DNA of 33,696 bases from a virus. A program made the translations under genes and the position numbers. Shown here one piece after another: positions 5,272-33,022 of this stretch. How positions within the stretch are numbered: position 1 is the first letter of the stretch; each line of letters starts with the position of its first letter. A model generated the notes under the pieces. The model saw only the letters and a program-made list of their open reading frames with translations. It was not told the DNA's origin and ran no database searches. Location of the stretch: positions 1 to 33,696 of IMG/VR virus record IMGVR_UViG_3300030107_004267. The stretch is one strand, 5' to 3'.

Positions 5272-7524
5272 ATGTCAGCTGAAACAAAAATAACAAATTT
5301 ATTAAATTATATTACAGGAAGTGCAGGTGGTTGGCCATCAAATACTAATGTTAGTATCCTTATGGGTGTTGATTACTTCATAGAGACAGGTTCTAACAAC
5401 ATTTATTTTAGTGAAATGAACACTGCTTGTGGAGTTAGTGGTGAGTTATCAAGACAAGAGGATACTTTTGATAAAATTTCAAATTATGCAGCATCTCAAA
5501 GTTGCACAACAGCGTATGTATATGGTCAAGATGATAATGTAAAACATAATCCTTCTTCTTTTCAAGAACCATTGATTAGTGCGAGTTTTGCAAGACACGG
5601 AATATCAGTAAATTTTGAGAATAATGATAACACTTCAATAACTTATTTTTCACAAAGAGGTCAATCACAATATTCAGGTAGTTTTCATTTATTTATGCAA
5701 ACACCTTGGTTTAGTGATGATACCTTGTTTAACATCGCAAGTGGTTCGTTTAACAAAAGTTCTTTTAGAAATATTCTATCATCATCACCAGAGAGTAATT
5801 GTTTAATACCATTATTTGATAAGGATAATTATACACCTAATGTTAATTTTCCTGACTATGTCATAAAAAAACCATCAGCTCACTCATCATTAGGAAGTGG
5901 TAATATAGGATTTAGAAAATATCAATCAGGCACTACTACTTATCAAGACGCGGTAGACAATGGAAACATAACTGAAAAGTTTATAGTATCAAGTGGTAGT
6001 TATAGTGGTGGAAGAGGGCACTTACTCACTAATAAAAAATATTATTGGGTAACACCAACGGAGATTATAAATGCCGGACAAGATGTTGACCAAAGTGTAA
6101 CTTACTCAAGTCAGTTTATTATGTCAGGAAGTGAAGCATATCACCCACAACCAAGATTTCTAAGAATAGTTGCAAGTGGAAGTTTAATCAATATGTATGA
6201 TGGTTCAACAAAACAAATCCAAGATGTAGAAGTCGGTGATGTTGTTAAATCATATCAACCGATTGGTATGCCAGATGAATCAGAAGGTATAAGTTGGGAA
6301 AGTTATACAACAACAGATTTAAGTGGTTCATTTTCTTCTGGTTCTATTGTTGTTGAAACAATAAATAAACAAAGTTATGGATATTATTTAATTAACGGAA
6401 GTATAAAAGTTCCTGCAGTTCCACATACTATGCACGGAGGTGGAAAGTTCTTTTGTAAAACAGGAGACGCTTGGAGTTGGAAGCAGTCAGTTGATATATC
6501 AGTCGGAGACTACTTTTTAAATAATGATGGTAGTGAGTTAGAAATCACATCAAAAACTAATGTTTTATCAGATGAAACATTTTATGGACTAAATGTTGAG
6601 GATATTGATACATACTTTCAATCAAATATATTGGTTCATAATATCCCACCACTTTGTTTTGTAGCAGGGACACAAATCACAATGGGAGACGGAGCTACAA
6701 AAGCAATAGAACTTATTGAAGTAGGTGATGAAATTAAAAATTATGACTTTGAAACAAAAGAAATCAAAGTAGGTAAAGTATTATCCATTGAAACACCAAC
6801 ACACGCAGATATCGTAGAGATTAGTTTCGGTGATAAGAAAAGTAGAAATACATTTGACCACCCATATTGGGTAGTCGGAAAAGGTTGGTCATCTTACAAA
6901 CCACATTGGACAGAAAAAAGATATGACATCAAATCTGGACAATTAGAGGTTGGAGATAAATGTTTAGAACTTCAAGATAATATAATCATAGAAACTGAAA
7001 TAACTGATATCCAAGAGGACATCAATCCAGTTCAAACATATTCATTGGGGGTAGAAACACACAAAAATTATTTTGCTAACGATATGTTAGTTCATAACAA
7101 AGGAAGTTTTTGTTTTACTTATGACACTATGATTACATTATCAGACGGAACATATCAACAGATATGTAAAATCAGACCAAACGATATGATAAAAACATAT
7201 GATGTAGAAACTGGTAAATTACAAAATTCAAAAGTGTTAGAAACCGTAAAAGTTCTACACGACAATATGGTTACATACAAATTTAATGACAATACAAAAA
7301 TTGAGGCAACTGACGACCACCCATTTTACATAGTTGGGAGTGGATACAAAGCACCATTAACCATTGGTGATATAGTGTTAAATGATGAATTACAAGAAAG
7401 AGAAGTTGTCAATATAGAGGTAAATAATGTGGAAAAAATTACATACAATATCAACAGAACTGATAATGGTAAAAATTATTTCGCAAATAGGGTTTTAGTT
7501 TCTGATGAGTTTGATACAGAATAA
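5272..7524 (+). CDS. Large protein with three tandem C-terminal Hint (intein-like) modules
   Basis: A 750-residue protein. Residues 1-295 match no family I can name; they are rich in Ser, Gly and Asn, which would suit a virion or fibre protein. The rest is three Hint modules. Module 1 (about 299-457) has no Cys at its start but ends in ILVHN. Module 2 (462-609) starts with CFVAGT, has an internal DHP (529-531) and ends in MLVHN. Module 3 (614-744) starts with CFTYDT, has DHP (682-684) and ends in VLVSD with no terminal His-Asn. Only four residues separate modules (IPPL and KGSF). There is no homing endonuclease insert and no Cys, Ser or Thr at the +1 position, so these resemble bacterial intein-like domains that cleave rather than splice. 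Good AGGAG before the start. Confidence 0.75.
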   Translation: MSAETKITNLLNYITGSAGGWPSNTNVSILMGVDYFIETGSNNIYFSEMNTACGVSGELSRQEDTFDKISNYAASQSCTTAYVYGQDDNVKHNPSSFQEPLISASFARHGISVNFENNDNTSITYFSQRGQSQYSGSFHLFMQTPWFSDDTLFNIASGSFNKSSFRNILSSSPESNCLIPLFDKDNYTPNVNFPDYVIKKPSAHSSLGSGNIGFRKYQSGTTTYQDAVDNGNITEKFIVSSGSYSGGRGHLLTNKKYYWVTPTEIINAGQDVDQSVTYSSQFIMSGSEAYHPQPRFLRIVASGSLINMYDGSTKQIQDVEVGDVVKSYQPIGMPDESEGISWESYTTTDLSGSFSSGSIVVETINKQSYGYYLINGSIKVPAVPHTMHGGGKFFCKTGDAWSWKQSVDISVGDYFLNNDGSELEITSKTNVLSDETFYGLNVEDIDTYFQSNILVHNIPPLCFVAGTQITMGDGATKAIELIEVGDEIKNYDFETKEIKVGKVLSIETPTHADIVEISFGDKKSRNTFDHPYWVVGKGWSSYKPHWTEKRYDIKSGQLEVGDKCLELQDNIIIETEITDIQEDINPVQTYSLGVETHKNYFANDMLVHNKGSFCFTYDTMITLSDGTYQQICKIRPNDMIKTYDVETGKLQNSKVLETVKVLHDNMVTYKFNDNTKIEATDDHPFYIVGSGYKAPLTIGDIVLNDELQEREVVNIEVNNVEKITYNINRTDNGKNYFANRVLVSDEFDTE

Positions 7525-28898: not shown

Positions 28899-29135
28899 AT
28901 GACAACATTACAAATTTTAGGTTGGATTTACTTAGGAATAATGCTAGGTAGTATGGGTGGAGTATTTGGACTATCATTATTTCAAGCAAGTAGAGTGGCA
29001 GATATGAAAGCTACTATCAACGATTTAGAATTCAAAAATAGAATTTTAAGAGGCGAAAACGATAGATTATCCAAAAGAGGTAAACCAGCCCCAAGAAAAA
29101 GAAGAAATTGGAAGAAAAAACCAGTCAAAAAATAG
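28899..29135 (+). CDS. Membrane-anchored coiled-coil protein with basic tail
   Basis: A 78-residue protein. Residues 5-30 are hydrophobic (one membrane segment with Gly-rich small residues), 31-60 can form a short coiled coil (DMKATINDLEFKNRILRGEN), and 61-78 are almost all Lys, Arg and Pro. Expected topology is N-terminal anchor with a basic cytoplasmic tail. GAGGAG before the ATG. A spanin or holin-associated role cannot be shown. Confidence 0.6.
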   Translation: MTTLQILGWIYLGIMLGSMGGVFGLSLFQASRVADMKATINDLEFKNRILRGENDRLSKRGKPAPRKRRNWKKKPVKK

Positions 29136-29466: not shown

Positions 29467-29495
29467 TTGACATTGTCAAAATTTATTACTATATT
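29467..29495 (+). promoter_or_regulatory. Sigma70-like early promoter P1
   Basis: TTGACA (29467-29472), 17-base spacer, TATATT (29490-29495), preceded by AAAAGC. The consensus -35 and exact spacing suggest recognition by unmodified host RNA polymerase, as for T4 early promoters. TTGACATTGTCAA around the -35 is itself a palindrome. Confidence 0.75.
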
Positions 29496-29547
29496 ATAGT
29501 GTAAGTTATTTGATAATTGGTGATAAAAAAAAAAGTTAAGAAAAAGC

Positions 29548-29576
29548 TTGACTTTCTCATTTTTTATTATTAGATT
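29548..29576 (+). promoter_or_regulatory. Sigma70-like early promoter P2
   Basis: TTGACT (29548-29553), 17-base spacer, TAGATT (29571-29576), with AAAAAGC just before it as in P1 and P3. It lies 81 bases after P1 in the same direction and shares TTATTA and ATTATA blocks at the same offsets, so the two look like a duplication. It stands about 30-60 bases ahead of the structured RNA and is the likeliest promoter for it. Confidence 0.65.
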
Positions 29577-29605
29577 ATAATGTTATTTGACAATTAGGTA
29601 GTAGA

Positions 29606-29834
29606 TTCATCACGAAAACCTTATCGTGTCCAGGAAGGGCGATAGTCGAGGGCGATGTTAACGGCGATAAGGCAGGTGGTTAGGTAAACAAAACAAACAA
29701 ATCACTTTGGAAACTTAGTGTGGTTTGTTTCCGATATGCCGGGAGCACAAACATCAGATTAGATACTGGTCTTGGAAACTTGACTTGGAGTCTGGTGGCG
29801 AAAAACAATAGTCTGGGTGTCAAGGGGTGATGAA
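29606..29834 (+). ncRNA. Structured non-coding RNA of unknown family
   Basis: No open frame of useful length, more G+C than its surroundings, and several perfect helices nested in order. Closing helix: TTCATCAC (29606-29613) with GTGATGAA (29827-29834). Helix 2: CCTTATCG (29619-29626) with CGATAAGG (29665-29672). Helix 3: AAACAAAC (29691-29698) with GTTTGTTT (29723-29730), then CACT/AGTG inside. Helix 4: CATCAGA (29752-29758) with TCTGGTG (29791-29797, one G-U pair). Helices 3 and 4 are both capped by the same ten bases TTGGAAACTT (29707-29716, 29772-29781), a GAAA tetraloop on a G-C pair with flanking U-U mismatches. GGCGAT occurs three times at 29638, 29651 and 29663. I see no match to tRNA, tmRNA or RNase P RNA. 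The transcript may extend to 29903. Confidence 0.7.
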
Positions 29835-29853
29835 AGAACTACCGAATATTTAG

Positions 29854-29903
29854 GGTGTGGGTGTGTTTGGTTATGTCTTTTGTGTCTTTTTTCTTCCCAC
29901 ACC
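29854..29903 (+). terminator. Long-loop hairpin after the structured RNA, possible terminator
   Basis: GGTGTGGG (29854-29861) pairs perfectly with CCCACACC (29896-29903) across a U-rich 34-base loop, followed by AAGATTTTTTAG. The downstream T run fits termination, but the large loop is unusual. It could instead be the 3' domain of the RNA. Confidence 0.45.
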
Positions 29904-29922
29904 AAGATTTTTTAGAAAAAGC

Positions 29923-29951
29923 TTGACAAGTTCAAGTATTATTTGTATATT
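29923..29951 (+). promoter_or_regulatory. Sigma70-like early promoter P3
   Basis: TTGACA (29923-29928), 17-base spacer, TATATT (29946-29951), preceded by AAAAAGC. Nearly identical in its key elements to P1. It lies just ahead of the small-gene array; GGAG follows at 29953 and the first ATG at 29961, so the leader would be very short. Confidence 0.78.
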
Positions 29952-29960
29952 AGGAGAGTT

Positions 29961-30089
29961 ATGAATAGTTTATTAAAAGTTAGAATTATAGATATGTTGT
30001 TTAACCTATTACTGAGTGATAGGTTGGGTAATGATGAAGTAGACCAAATAAATGACATCATTGTAAAAGTGAGAGGATTAAAAGTATAA
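29961..30089 (+). CDS. Small hypothetical protein, first gene of the early array
   Basis: A 42-residue protein (starts MNSLLKVRIIDMLFNLLL, ends VRGLKV) with GGAG eight bases before the ATG and directly behind promoter P3. It looks like an amphipathic helical protein. No family recognised. Separated by one base from the next start. Confidence 0.6.
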   Translation: MNSLLKVRIIDMLFNLLLSDRLGNDEVDQINDIIVKVRGLKV

Positions 30090-30611: not shown

Positions 30612-30725
30612 ATGGATTTGACAAATATTATATTTAATATGTCTGAATTGATTCAGATACTAGAGGAAAAATTAACTGATGACGAAATAGAAGTATTTTT
30701 GTCGTCTGAATGGGGGGTAGCATAA
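30612..30725 (+). CDS. Small acidic hypothetical protein
   Basis: A 37-residue acidic protein (NMSELIQILEEKLTDDEIEV inside) with GAGG before the ATG. Its stop overlaps the next start by one base (TAATG). Helical, soluble. Confidence 0.5.
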   Translation: MDLTNIIFNMSELIQILEEKLTDDEIEVFLSSEWGVA

Positions 30726-30799
30726 TGATTATGAATCCGGAGTTTCATTTTATTGTTGCACTATTTTTAGGTGCTTACATTTTATTCAATTGGAGGTAG
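30725..30799 (+). CDS. Micro membrane protein (24 residues)
   Basis: MIMNPEFHFIVALFLGAYIL then FNWR: one membrane segment at about 8-22. A run of six G before the start serves as ribosome site. Coupled to its upstream neighbour. Confidence 0.45.
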   Translation: MIMNPEFHFIVALFLGAYILFNWR

Positions 30800-30800
30800 T

Positions 30801-30947
30801 ATGGACGCGTTATTACATTTTTTCAAACACTTAATTGGGTTGTGCGGAGAAGCACATCCAAGTTTAATAATGGGTGGTGGAGTATTTCTTTATACCGCGG
30901 GTATTTATTATAGACAAATATTAGAATACTTAAGGAGTTTATTATAA
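30801..30947 (+). CDS. Small membrane protein (48 residues)
   Basis: A 48-residue protein with GGAGG before the ATG. The N-terminal 15 residues are amphipathic (DALLHFFKHLIGL) and 20-36 are a Gly-rich membrane segment (SLIMGGGVFLYTAGIYY). The layout would suit a small pore or membrane-active peptide, which is only a guess. TAATG overlap with the next gene. Confidence 0.52.
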   Translation: MDALLHFFKHLIGLCGEAHPSLIMGGGVFLYTAGIYYRQILEYLRSLL

Positions 30948-31006
30948 TGGAGATGTTTATAAATGTATTGGTTATAATGGCTATGGCTTGGGTAATATCA
31001 AGATGA
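30947..31006 (+). CDS. Micro membrane protein (19 residues)
   Basis: MEMFINVLVIMAMAWVISR, almost entirely one membrane helix. AAGGAG lies upstream within the previous gene; the start shares a base with the previous stop and the end overlaps the next start by ATGA. Support comes from this coupling only. Confidence 0.4.
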   Translation: MEMFINVLVIMAMAWVISR

Positions 31007-31089
31007 TAGAAAATATAGTATCAGTAGGATTAACTACAATATGTGGTGTAATGGCTATGTTTTGGTTTATAAGGAGTATGAGTAATTAA
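31003..31089 (+). CDS. Micro membrane protein (28 residues)
   Basis: A 28-residue protein with one membrane segment (VSVGLTTICGVMAMFWFI). Starts inside the previous stop and ends on the start of the following 137-residue gene (TAATG). Confidence 0.45.
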   Translation: MIENIVSVGLTTICGVMAMFWFIRSMSN

Positions 31090-31502
31090 TGCCAACTGCT
31101 AAACAACAATGGTTAAACAGATATGACACTTATCACGCCGCAACCGAGTATAATAAAAAACAATACGGAAAAAGAATTAAACAATTAAAACATATGTTAG
31201 AGGACGAAAAGTTCTTGGAGTTCTTATCAAGTAAAGATTGTAAAGAAGACGCATTATTATTCTTGGCAAAATCAAGGGAGTTCGATATGTATATAGCATT
31301 TACTGAACAAGGTGAACCATATATCCACGACCACGATTTTGGACTAATCAACCATATGAAAAAAATGTTGGGAGTATTACAATCAGAGCGTTATGTAGCA
31401 ACCAGCTCAGTAAGACCACAAGCCAAAAGATATGTAGAAATGTATTTGTGGTATGATAAAGAACCAGTAGATTCAGAACCACTACCGGACTTGCCATTCT
31501 AA
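31089..31502 (+). CDS. Hypothetical protein
   Basis: A 137-residue Lys-rich soluble protein (starts MPTAKQQWLNRYDTYHAATE). Mostly helical, with a central strand-rich part (FDMYIAFTEQGEPYIHDHDF). AAGGAG is 13 bases upstream. It is the largest gene of the early array and is coupled to the SWIM protein after it (TAATG). Function unknown. Confidence 0.68.
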   Translation: MPTAKQQWLNRYDTYHAATEYNKKQYGKRIKQLKHMLEDEKFLEFLSSKDCKEDALLFLAKSREFDMYIAFTEQGEPYIHDHDFGLINHMKKMLGVLQSERYVATSSVRPQAKRYVEMYLWYDKEPVDSEPLPDLPF

Positions 31503-31708
31503 TGGATATGATTACACAAGTTATGAATATTTTCAACGGAGTCTATGTTGACGATAGAGGTTGGAGACATTACAGAGTTCAAGGCAAAACTTATGATATC
31601 AGATTTCACCCTATGACACTCGAGTGGGAGTGTAGTTGTCCAGCTTACAAGTTCGGAAGAGGTAAACCTTGTAAGCACATCAAAGAAATTCAAAATAATA
31701 AAAAATAA
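31502..31708 (+). CDS. SWIM zinc-finger protein
   Basis: A 68-residue protein whose C-terminal half is a SWIM finger, CxCx(n)CxH: WECSCPAYKFGRGKPCKHI. SWIM domains bind DNA or proteins. The N-terminal half is a beta strand pair (YVDDRGWRHYRVQGKTYDI). Stand-alone SWIM fingers of this size are likely adaptor or nucleic-acid-binding proteins. Confidence 0.75.
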   Translation: MDMITQVMNIFNGVYVDDRGWRHYRVQGKTYDIRFHPMTLEWECSCPAYKFGRGKPCKHIKEIQNNKK

Positions 31709-31721
31709 TTCTCACCTTTTC

Positions 31722-31750
31722 ATATACTTATATATACTTATATATGTATG
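31722..31750 (+). repeat. Tandem 10-base AT-rich repeat
   Basis: ATATACTTAT occurs twice in a row (31722-31731, 31732-31741) followed by a partial ATATGTATG that reaches the start codon at 31748. It fills the only real gap inside the early array and may be a binding site or a promoter remnant. Confidence 0.5.
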
Positions 31751-32056
31751 AGTAGCACCCCCAACACATCAAACAAAGCAAAGCTAACCAGCAAAGTCGT
31801 CGCTCTCTTAGGATACTTTGTGACTTGGTTCGTTATGTTTCCAATATTTGTAGTAGGTGGTATATTGACTATCTTAGTGGATAGAGTTTTCCCAAGTAAA
31901 GACGACGCAAATACGCGGCTCACTATTTCGGATGAATCAAAGATTCCCCCGAAAAAGACGAGCAAAGAAAGCGTTCCGGTCTTTAAATCGGAATCAAGAA
32001 ATGAGTATGGAGTGCCGATTGAATTAGTTGAACAAAATAGGAAAGCAAAGGTATGA
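31748..32056 (+). CDS. Membrane protein with long soluble tail
   Basis: A 102-residue protein: a short Ser/Thr-rich N terminus, a strong membrane segment at about 17-45 (VALLGYFVTWFVMFPIFVVG), then a hydrophilic Lys/Ser-rich tail. No Shine-Dalgarno is visible because the tandem repeat occupies the upstream bases. Codon use is a little richer in G+C near 31890-31990 than around it. Ends in an ATGA overlap. Confidence 0.6.
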   Translation: MSSTPNTSNKAKLTSKVVALLGYFVTWFVMFPIFVVGGILTILVDRVFPSKDDANTRLTISDESKIPPKKTSKESVPVFKSESRNEYGVPIELVEQNRKAKV

Positions 32057-32133
32057 ATACAATATTATTGATAGTTGTTTTTGGTATTACGGGTTGGGTT
32101 GTGTGGAAAAATATACATAATCCAAATTTATAA
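32053..32133 (+). CDS. Micro membrane protein (26 residues)
   Basis: MNTILLIVVFGITGWVVW then KNIHNPNL: one membrane segment with a short polar end. Starts in the previous stop (ATGA). Confidence 0.47.
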   Translation: MNTILLIVVFGITGWVVWKNIHNPNL

Positions 32134-32134
32134 T

Positions 32135-32428
32135 ATGGAGAAAGCGGTGAAAGATAAAATGTCAAAGAGTTGGAATGGCGGGAAAACAAATCAATATAAT
32201 GAGATGTTGAGAGATAGTGAGGATTATTACGATACAATAGATAGTGAAAAAGAAACAAGAGAAGATTTAGTCAAAAGAGAACGATTAATGAGAGAAGAAG
32301 CGAAAAACCAAAAAATACAATCCAAGTATTCATTGAGTAAAAAACCAATGCACGAACTTTACAACGATATAGATTACGAGAAAAAAACACCAATTAGCGG
32401 TATGGGTGGAGTCAAGAGAACGAAATGA
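32135..32428 (+). CDS. Hydrophilic charged hypothetical protein
   Basis: A 97-residue highly charged protein (starts MEKAVKDKMSKSWNGG) with a likely coiled coil in the middle (SEKETREDLVKRERLMREEA) and a basic end (GMGGVKRTK). I start it at ATG 32135, one base after the previous stop, rather than at the upstream in-frame TTG at 32075, which would lie inside the 26-residue gene. Unknown function. Confidence 0.65.
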   Translation: MEKAVKDKMSKSWNGGKTNQYNEMLRDSEDYYDTIDSEKETREDLVKRERLMREEAKNQKIQSKYSLSKKPMHELYNDIDYEKKTPISGMGGVKRTK

Positions 32429-32595
32429 TGTGTAATTTAGCGGTATTTTTGATAATCATAATGTATATAGGAATATGTGCGATGGTGGTGAGTATGTGGT
32501 TATTACGCACCATAGATGACCAACAATCCGAAGTTGAAAACTCAATAGATGAAATGAGTGATGATGATTATTTTGAATCCGGAGACTTATTGTAA
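32425..32595 (+). CDS. Small membrane protein with acidic tail (56 residues)
   Basis: A 56-residue protein: membrane segment at about 5-27 (LAVFLIIIMYIGICAMVVSM) and an acidic C-terminal tail (DEMSDDDYFESGDLL). ATGA overlap upstream and TAATG overlap downstream. Confidence 0.55.
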   Translation: MMCNLAVFLIIIMYIGICAMVVSMWLLRTIDDQQSEVENSIDEMSDDDYFESGDLL

Positions 32596-32678
32596 TGGAT
32601 GTTCAACACATTGTGATGTTCTTTGGTTCGGTATCGGTCGTAGTATGGGTATTGCACGATATGAATAAGTGGTCGTGA
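32595..32678 (+). CDS. Micro membrane protein (27 residues)
   Basis: One membrane segment (HIVMFFGSVSVVVWVL) in 27 residues. GGAG lies 12 bases upstream. It shares a base with both neighbouring genes (TAATG, TGATG). Confidence 0.48.
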   Translation: MDVQHIVMFFGSVSVVVWVLHDMNKWS

Positions 32679-32779
32679 TGAAGACGCTATTAGGATTAAT
32701 CATATTGATACCATTGACTATGGGAGCGGTGTTTTTATTAGGATTAGCAGTAGAAGATGAGGAGAATATAAAATGGTAA
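32678..32779 (+). CDS. Micro membrane protein (33 residues)
   Basis: A 33-residue protein, one membrane segment (LLGLIILIPLTMGAVFLLGL) and a short acidic end. One-base overlap with the previous gene and 7-base overlap with the next. Confidence 0.5.
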   Translation: MKTLLGLIILIPLTMGAVFLLGLAVEDEENIKW

Positions 32780-32904
32780 TACAAAAGTATTGTAGTAAAA
32801 GAATGACTGGTAATGTTATTAGTGCTAGGTCAGTCATTAGAGAGAAAAAACTTAAAAGGTTAGCTATTAAGTCTAAAAGCAATACTCTGAATAAATCAAA
32901 ATAA
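32773..32904 (+). CDS. Small basic protein (43 residues)
   Basis: A 43-residue very basic protein (MVIQKYCSKRMTGNVISARS then a Lys/Arg-rich end). GAGGAG stands before the ATG. The charge suggests nucleic-acid or acidic-surface binding. TAATG overlap with the next start. Confidence 0.5.
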   Translation: MVIQKYCSKRMTGNVISARSVIREKKLKRLAIKSKSNTLNKSK

Positions 32905-32966
32905 TGGACTTTCTGATATTATTGATATGGTGTATTGGAGTATGGATGATAGTGGATAAGTTGTGA
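32904..32966 (+). CDS. Micro membrane protein (20 residues)
   Basis: MDFLILLIWCIGVWMIVDKL, a single membrane helix, sharing one base with the previous stop. Last gene before the terminator. Confidence 0.42.
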   Translation: MDFLILLIWCIGVWMIVDKL

Positions 32967-33000
32967 TATTCGTCGTGGAGAGGCGCCGGATTGGCTTACG

Positions 33001-33022
33001 CCCACCTTTGGTGGGTTTTTTT
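33001..33022 (+). terminator. Intrinsic terminator closing the early array
   Basis: CCCACC-TTT-GGTGGG (33001-33015), a perfect six-pair G+C-rich stem with a three-base loop, followed by seven T. Upstream GGCG and CGCC in 32978-33001 could form a second small stem. Confidence 0.9.

Follow-up and report, generated by a model that had tools for sequence, protein, structure and literature searches.

Gene content and layout of the row

The window, that is, the whole analysed stretch of DNA, comprises the 33,696 bases of an IMG/VR virus record, and its + strand is tiled from 30612 to 32966 by abutting genes, nine of which have only 19-56 codons. A longer row begins at 29961 and also contains genes of 100, 74, 37, 137, 68, 102, 97 and 43 codons; it is interrupted by a 39-nt gap at 31709-31747. 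Scans of IMG/VR provided five related contigs, four of them informative for the row: 3300029319_005306 (L001), 3300030061_001526 (L002), 3300025102_004859 (L007/L008, hereafter L008) and 3300025102_000178 (L009). The fifth, L003, extends only from the 137-aa gene onwards. The features are listed below, with amino acid identities, w and p values for comparisons with these contigs, and genes are named hereafter by their start position.

29923-29951, + strand: promoter-like site TTGACA-17-TATATT (11/12), the strong site closest to the array on its upstream side, with two sister sites (29467 and 29548)
29961-30089, + strand: 42-aa ORF, start of the transcription unit; homologue in L009, 88% identical
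30612-30725, + strand: 37-aa acidic soluble micro-gene; homologues in L001, L002, L008 and L009; neutral simulation p <= 0.0025 against the window
30725-30799, + strand: 24-aa probable single-span peptide; 79% identity in L002 (w 0.30, p 0.05); absent in L001, L008 and L009
30801-30947, + strand: 48-aa helical peptide, amphipathic and hydrophobic; 77% identity in L002 (w 0.22, p 0.0005)
30947-31006, + strand: predicted 19-aa single-span peptide with invariant MAWVIS; homologues in four relatives (w 0.15-0.36 against the window)
31003-31089, + strand: predicted 28-aa single-span peptide with conserved VSVGLTTxCGV; homologues in four relatives; weak selection signal in some pairs
31089-31502, + strand: 137-aa soluble protein, synteny anchor; 72-82% identity in relatives (w 0.16-0.38 over tested pairs)
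31502-31708, + strand: 68-aa SWIM zinc-finger protein (Pfam PF04434, 23.4 bits, cut-off 19.6); 81% identity in L008
31748-32056, + strand: 102-aa protein with one hydrophobic segment (hydropathy 2.46); 48% identity in L008 (w 0.35)
32053-32133, + strand: predicted 26-aa single-span peptide; 46% identity in L008 (w 0.49, p 0.01)
32135-32428, + strand: 97-aa soluble charged protein, start may be 32159; 74% identity in L008 (w 0.18)
32425-32595, + strand: 56-aa protein, hydrophobic segment (hydropathy 2.98) and acidic tail; only 23% identity in L008
32595-32678, + strand: predicted 27-aa single-span peptide (hydropathy 1.98); weak match to PHROG 11929 'membrane protein' (E 0.003)
32678-32779, + strand: predicted 33-aa single-span peptide (hydropathy 2.65); no homologue found in relatives
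32773-32904, + strand: 43-aa basic soluble protein; 67% identity in L008 (w 0.26, p 0.001)
32904-32966, + strand: predicted 20-aa single-span peptide; 47% identity in L008 (w 0.19, p 0.003)
33000-33016, + strand: intrinsic-terminator-like hairpin followed by a T run; in L008 the first arm, GCCCACC, stands in the equivalent position and the contig then ends

The nine small ORFs, of 24, 48, 19, 28, 26, 56, 27, 33 and 20 codons, lie at the starts given in the preliminary description, and the start-stop overlaps that it claimed can be read directly at most junctions: TAATG or TGATG at seven (30725, 30947, 31089, 31502, 32595, 32678 and 32904) and ATGA at three (31003, 32053 and 32425). A 1-nt gap precedes 30801 and 32135, and 32773 overlaps its neighbour by 7 nt. 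The window, L001, L002, L008 and L009 share an identical TAATG junction at the start of the 137-aa gene. The row therefore has one characteristic of the tiny-gene clusters of T4-type phages, a series of adjoining genes shorter than about 60 codons. Shine-Dalgarno-like sequences (at least four matching bases) precede 57% of 14 array starts, compared to 71% of large genes and 22% of all ATGs, so that their frequency here comes close to that of the window's large genes.

A chain scan, in which ORFs of at least 18 codons had to start between -8 and +6 bases from the previous end, found a longest chain of eight genes on the + strand and of two on the other strand. Across 1000 dinucleotide-preserving shuffles the mean chain was 1.7 and the maximum five, and a chain of eight was found in none. 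The region was initially described as an array of micro membrane proteins; it is indeed rich in such proteins, but soluble genes (37, 137, 68, 97 and 43 aa) are interleaved with them, and it is an operon rather than a pure array. Predicted single-span proteins are also found upstream, at 28899 and 29170.

Gene order and selection in related phages

By sequence, the genome is classed as T4 type: the best matches of its gp44-like clamp loader are in T4-like phages and uncultured phages (38-47% identity), and gp32-like and RecA-like genes were read from the sequence downstream of the region in L003. No DNA similarity of the region to named phages was found, nor any protein match in named phages for the 137-, 73-, 48- and 28-aa proteins, nor any match for the 137-aa family in bacterial and archaeal genomes. 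Family scans with 31003, 30612 and 30801 gave no contigs beyond those already known, and that with 31748 found no contig. Searches of Pfam, PHROGs, NCBIfam and PADLOC with the array genes gave no convincing family except SWIM, and no functional homologue was found for any micro-protein.

L002 keeps the order 30612-30725-30801-30947-31003-31089, while L001 and L008 keep 30612-30947-31003-31089 with 30725 and 30801 cleanly missing, and L009 shows an unrelated 68-codon ORF in the 30725/30801 slot. Micro-genes are thus gained and lost whole, these two being found in one relative, absent in two and replaced in a third. Further on, L008 has homologues of 31502, 31748, 32053, 32135, 32425, 32773 and 32904, and an unrelated longer ORF replaces 32595 and 32678. 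At the junction of 30947 and 31003, the window lacks 23 bases that four relatives have, a loss by which the PTNNMR C-terminal tail of 30947 disappeared and the ATGA overlap was created. The 31003 peptide shows 16 of 28 residues invariant across five phages.

Selection was analyzed per family with Nei-Gojobori counts and a simulation that places the observed substitution types at random positions; the pairs share ancestry, and the p values are therefore not independent, nor are they corrected for number. Nonsynonymous changes are depleted, with w mostly 0.15-0.5, and no stops appear where neutral change often would give one. For 30947 the neutral simulation gave p values of 0.006-0.05 against the window, and in the larger genes the nonsynonymous counts without a stop are also unlikely under neutral change. 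The signal of 31003 is weak (p 0.03-0.55 by pair; w 1.1 against L001).

According to the preliminary description, frames interrupted at random in relatives would count against these genes. In the four informative contigs, order and open frames are kept and amino acid changes are depleted for most members, which supports, from sequence comparison, the view that most are real, selected genes below the usual length cut-offs. That view does not extend equally to all: 32425 keeps its place, length and hydrophobic-plus-acidic layout despite the 23% identity, and 32595 and 32678 have no homologue in relatives, the only indications of their coding being layout and hydropathy.

Other elements were noted in the relatives and in the rest of the window. 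Two tandem manA-RNA-like elements (RF01745) were found in L001 (5031-5415), L002 (6514-6899) and L003 (488-873), between the 137-aa gene and the gp32-like gene; the second copy scores 48.8-54.6 bits (curated cut-off 55.2) and the first 21.8-26 bits, with a mean column identity of about 96% over 557 columns. No match to this element was found in the searched part of the window. By eye, positions 5272-7524 of the window show a 750-aa ORF with several Hint/intein-like repeats (CFVAGTQI..., CFTYDTMI...), and a long run of sugar and surface-modification genes extends from 3481 to 28528, including glycosyltransferases, an epimerase and genes resembling N-acetylneuraminate synthase and asparagine synthase.

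Putative transcription signals and predicted membrane segments

The sigma-70-like family AAGCTTGACATTGTCA...TATATT has three sites in the window (29467, 29548 and 29923), and each of L001, L002, L008 and L009 has between two and four. Every site is on the gene strand and precedes the array, and no strong sigma-70-like site was found inside it. The T4-type late promoter motif is matched about as often as expected by chance, with no + strand match close to the array. The sigma-70-like sites upstream and the chance level of late motifs make early transcription of the operon likely; the early timing proposed before is in this way supported, although indirectly. The single terminator that had been placed at 33001 corresponds to the stem at 33000-33016.

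Between the promoter-like sites, a stretch without a good ORF is conserved in the window (29585-29912), L001 (2870-3130) and L002 (4170-4460). Its 65 predicted pairs in three sequences, six of them with two-sided changes, would fit a structured non-coding RNA roughly 300 nt long; no Rfam family matched above chance.

Membrane predictions were based on hydropathy, as the best mean over 18 residues with a threshold of 1.6. Seven of the nine micro-genes reach this value (30947, 31003, 32053, 32425, 32595, 32678 and 32904), so the statement that most encode one membrane helix holds for these, but 30725 is borderline (1.48) and 30801 is weak (1.11). A structure model of 30801 from a two-sequence alignment shows one long helix from residue 2 to 47 (mean pLDDT 84.7), and that of the 137-aa protein is of low confidence (mean pLDDT 46). 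A hydrophobic segment is present in 7/11 small ORFs. The corresponding share is 3% for ORFs from shuffled sequence and 24% for antisense ORFs in the window, and the excess over the latter is modest (p 0.006). Hydropathy thus supports membrane association of most micro-proteins, and the predicted membrane-spanning segment is a further characteristic of the tiny-gene clusters of T4-type phages.

Most micro-proteins show an acidic residue before the hydrophobic stretch and a basic residue after it, and the C-terminal side is net basic in 30725, 30801, 30947, 31003 and 32053. By the positive-inside rule, this pattern suggests an inner-membrane topology that is mostly N-out, C-in. The interior of the 31003 helix contains conserved small or polar residues (S7, G9, T11, T12, C14 and G15), as would be expected for packing against a partner. 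Several single-span peptides end in a W-V/I motif, but hhalign gave a probability of only 18-37% for paralogy among them, and no such relation is proposed. The idea that the 19- and 20-aa peptides are type I toxins was set aside, because they lie in an operon with coupled starts and show no convincing antisense promoter.

Proposed role and comparison with known systems

We propose, with a probability of about 0.5, that the row is a modular early operon whose tiny single-helix proteins redirect host physiology through membrane complexes, each with its own target. It would be transcribed early from the host-sigma-70-like promoters at 29467-29951, end at 33016, and encode eight or more tiny proteins, each with a single hydrophobic helix, with small soluble proteins between them. 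The start-stop overlaps would couple translation, and may also be the junctions at which whole genes are lost or swapped with their neighbours undisturbed. The peptides would sit in the inner membrane of the host, in most cases with the short acidic N-terminus facing outwards and the basic C-terminus inwards. Through their helices they would bind host membrane protein complexes and thereby redirect the physiology of the host early in infection. The path from a membrane helix to a host target is modelled on the T4 ndd/ac/stp region, here with a separate target per peptide. The host takeover suggested by the preliminary description is plausible by this analogy, but the proteins show no sequence relation to those of T4.

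Tentatively, the row could also be an exchangeable cassette, in which the core pair (the 30947 and 31003 families) is kept and the others are swapped at start-stop junctions. The products would be combinatorial modulators of membrane complexes without known relatives, some of them possibly mimicking subunits of host membrane complexes.

Superinfection exclusion, the other role suggested by the preliminary description, in which some of the peptides alter the inner membrane and keep out the DNA of a second phage as T4 Imm does, is unlikely. Small membrane proteins in a putative early region of a T4-type phage, and gene turnover among relatives, fit such competition between phages. However, the most widely kept members (30947 and 31003) are conserved and not variable, unlike what exclusion specificity would lead one to expect, and T4 Imm, Imm.1 and Sp have no detectable relation to the present proteins. 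Imm, an 83-aa superinfection immunity membrane protein, is also small and from a T4-type phage; it is longer than the present peptides, has hydrophobic stretches in both halves and shows no similarity to them.

Translational coupling or a leader-peptide function towards the larger genes (137, 68 and 97 aa) as the main role of the micro-ORFs, with irrelevant products, is quite unlikely. The tight overlaps and the invariant TAATG into the 137-aa gene are as this would predict, but coupling requires neither the amino acid constraint on most ORFs nor the conserved MAWVIS and VSVGLTTxCGV, and 30725 and 30801 are absent in relatives that retain the downstream genes. A role in lysis control is distinctly improbable: the size and single hydrophobic segment resemble pinholins, and a holin PHROG is weakly matched (E 0.025) by the 94-aa product of 29170 upstream, so that pinholins, antiholins or lysis-timing factors come to mind, but no endolysin is seen among the neighbours of the array, no + strand motif of T4 late type lies near it, and the upstream promoter-like sites are of sigma-70 type. 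Chance ORFs in A+T-rich DNA, an explanation scarcely credible beyond 32595 and 32678 at most, which lack homologues, are refuted for most members by the chain scan, synteny and selection.

Proteins as short as 19-28 residues are thus held by selection, and gained or lost whole, in an uncultured phage group. Because the usual length cut-offs exclude such genes, the probable early genes of these phages are under-counted, and the families (core pair and variable slots) are concrete candidates for testing tiny phage membrane proteins. Very short phage genes are described as very numerous, with small families predicted from metagenomes, by Fremin et al. (2022) as cited in PMC11323111.

Phage T4 provides a known example of a row of tiny membrane-protein genes. 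Its cluster 52.1-ac-stp-ndd-ndd.1..ndd.6 consists mostly of abutting or overlapping genes of 26-51 codons, like the present row, and most have one strong hydrophobic segment; the record annotation describes them as predicted proteins of the membrane or periplasm. Under the identical chain scan it shows two 4-gene chains, while the present row, with 5 and 6 micro-genes in chain, is longer and is interleaved with the SWIM zinc finger and other soluble genes. Searches with phmmer and blastp found no significant match between the T4 52.1, ac, stp and ndd.x proteins and the present ones; by sequence, the T4 cluster appears to be of similar kind and not of the same family. In the marine T4-like phage HTVC008M there is no such chain among its genes, its only two 4-ORF chains opposing annotated genes, and rows this long are therefore not found in every phage of T4 type. 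Phage phiNM1 makes Gp11, a small membrane protein of early infection whose binding partners are the host wall and division proteins MurG and DivIC (PMC11237401); Gp11 is likewise a small phage membrane protein directed at a host membrane process and, coming from another phage and host, offers an analogue for the action proposed here.
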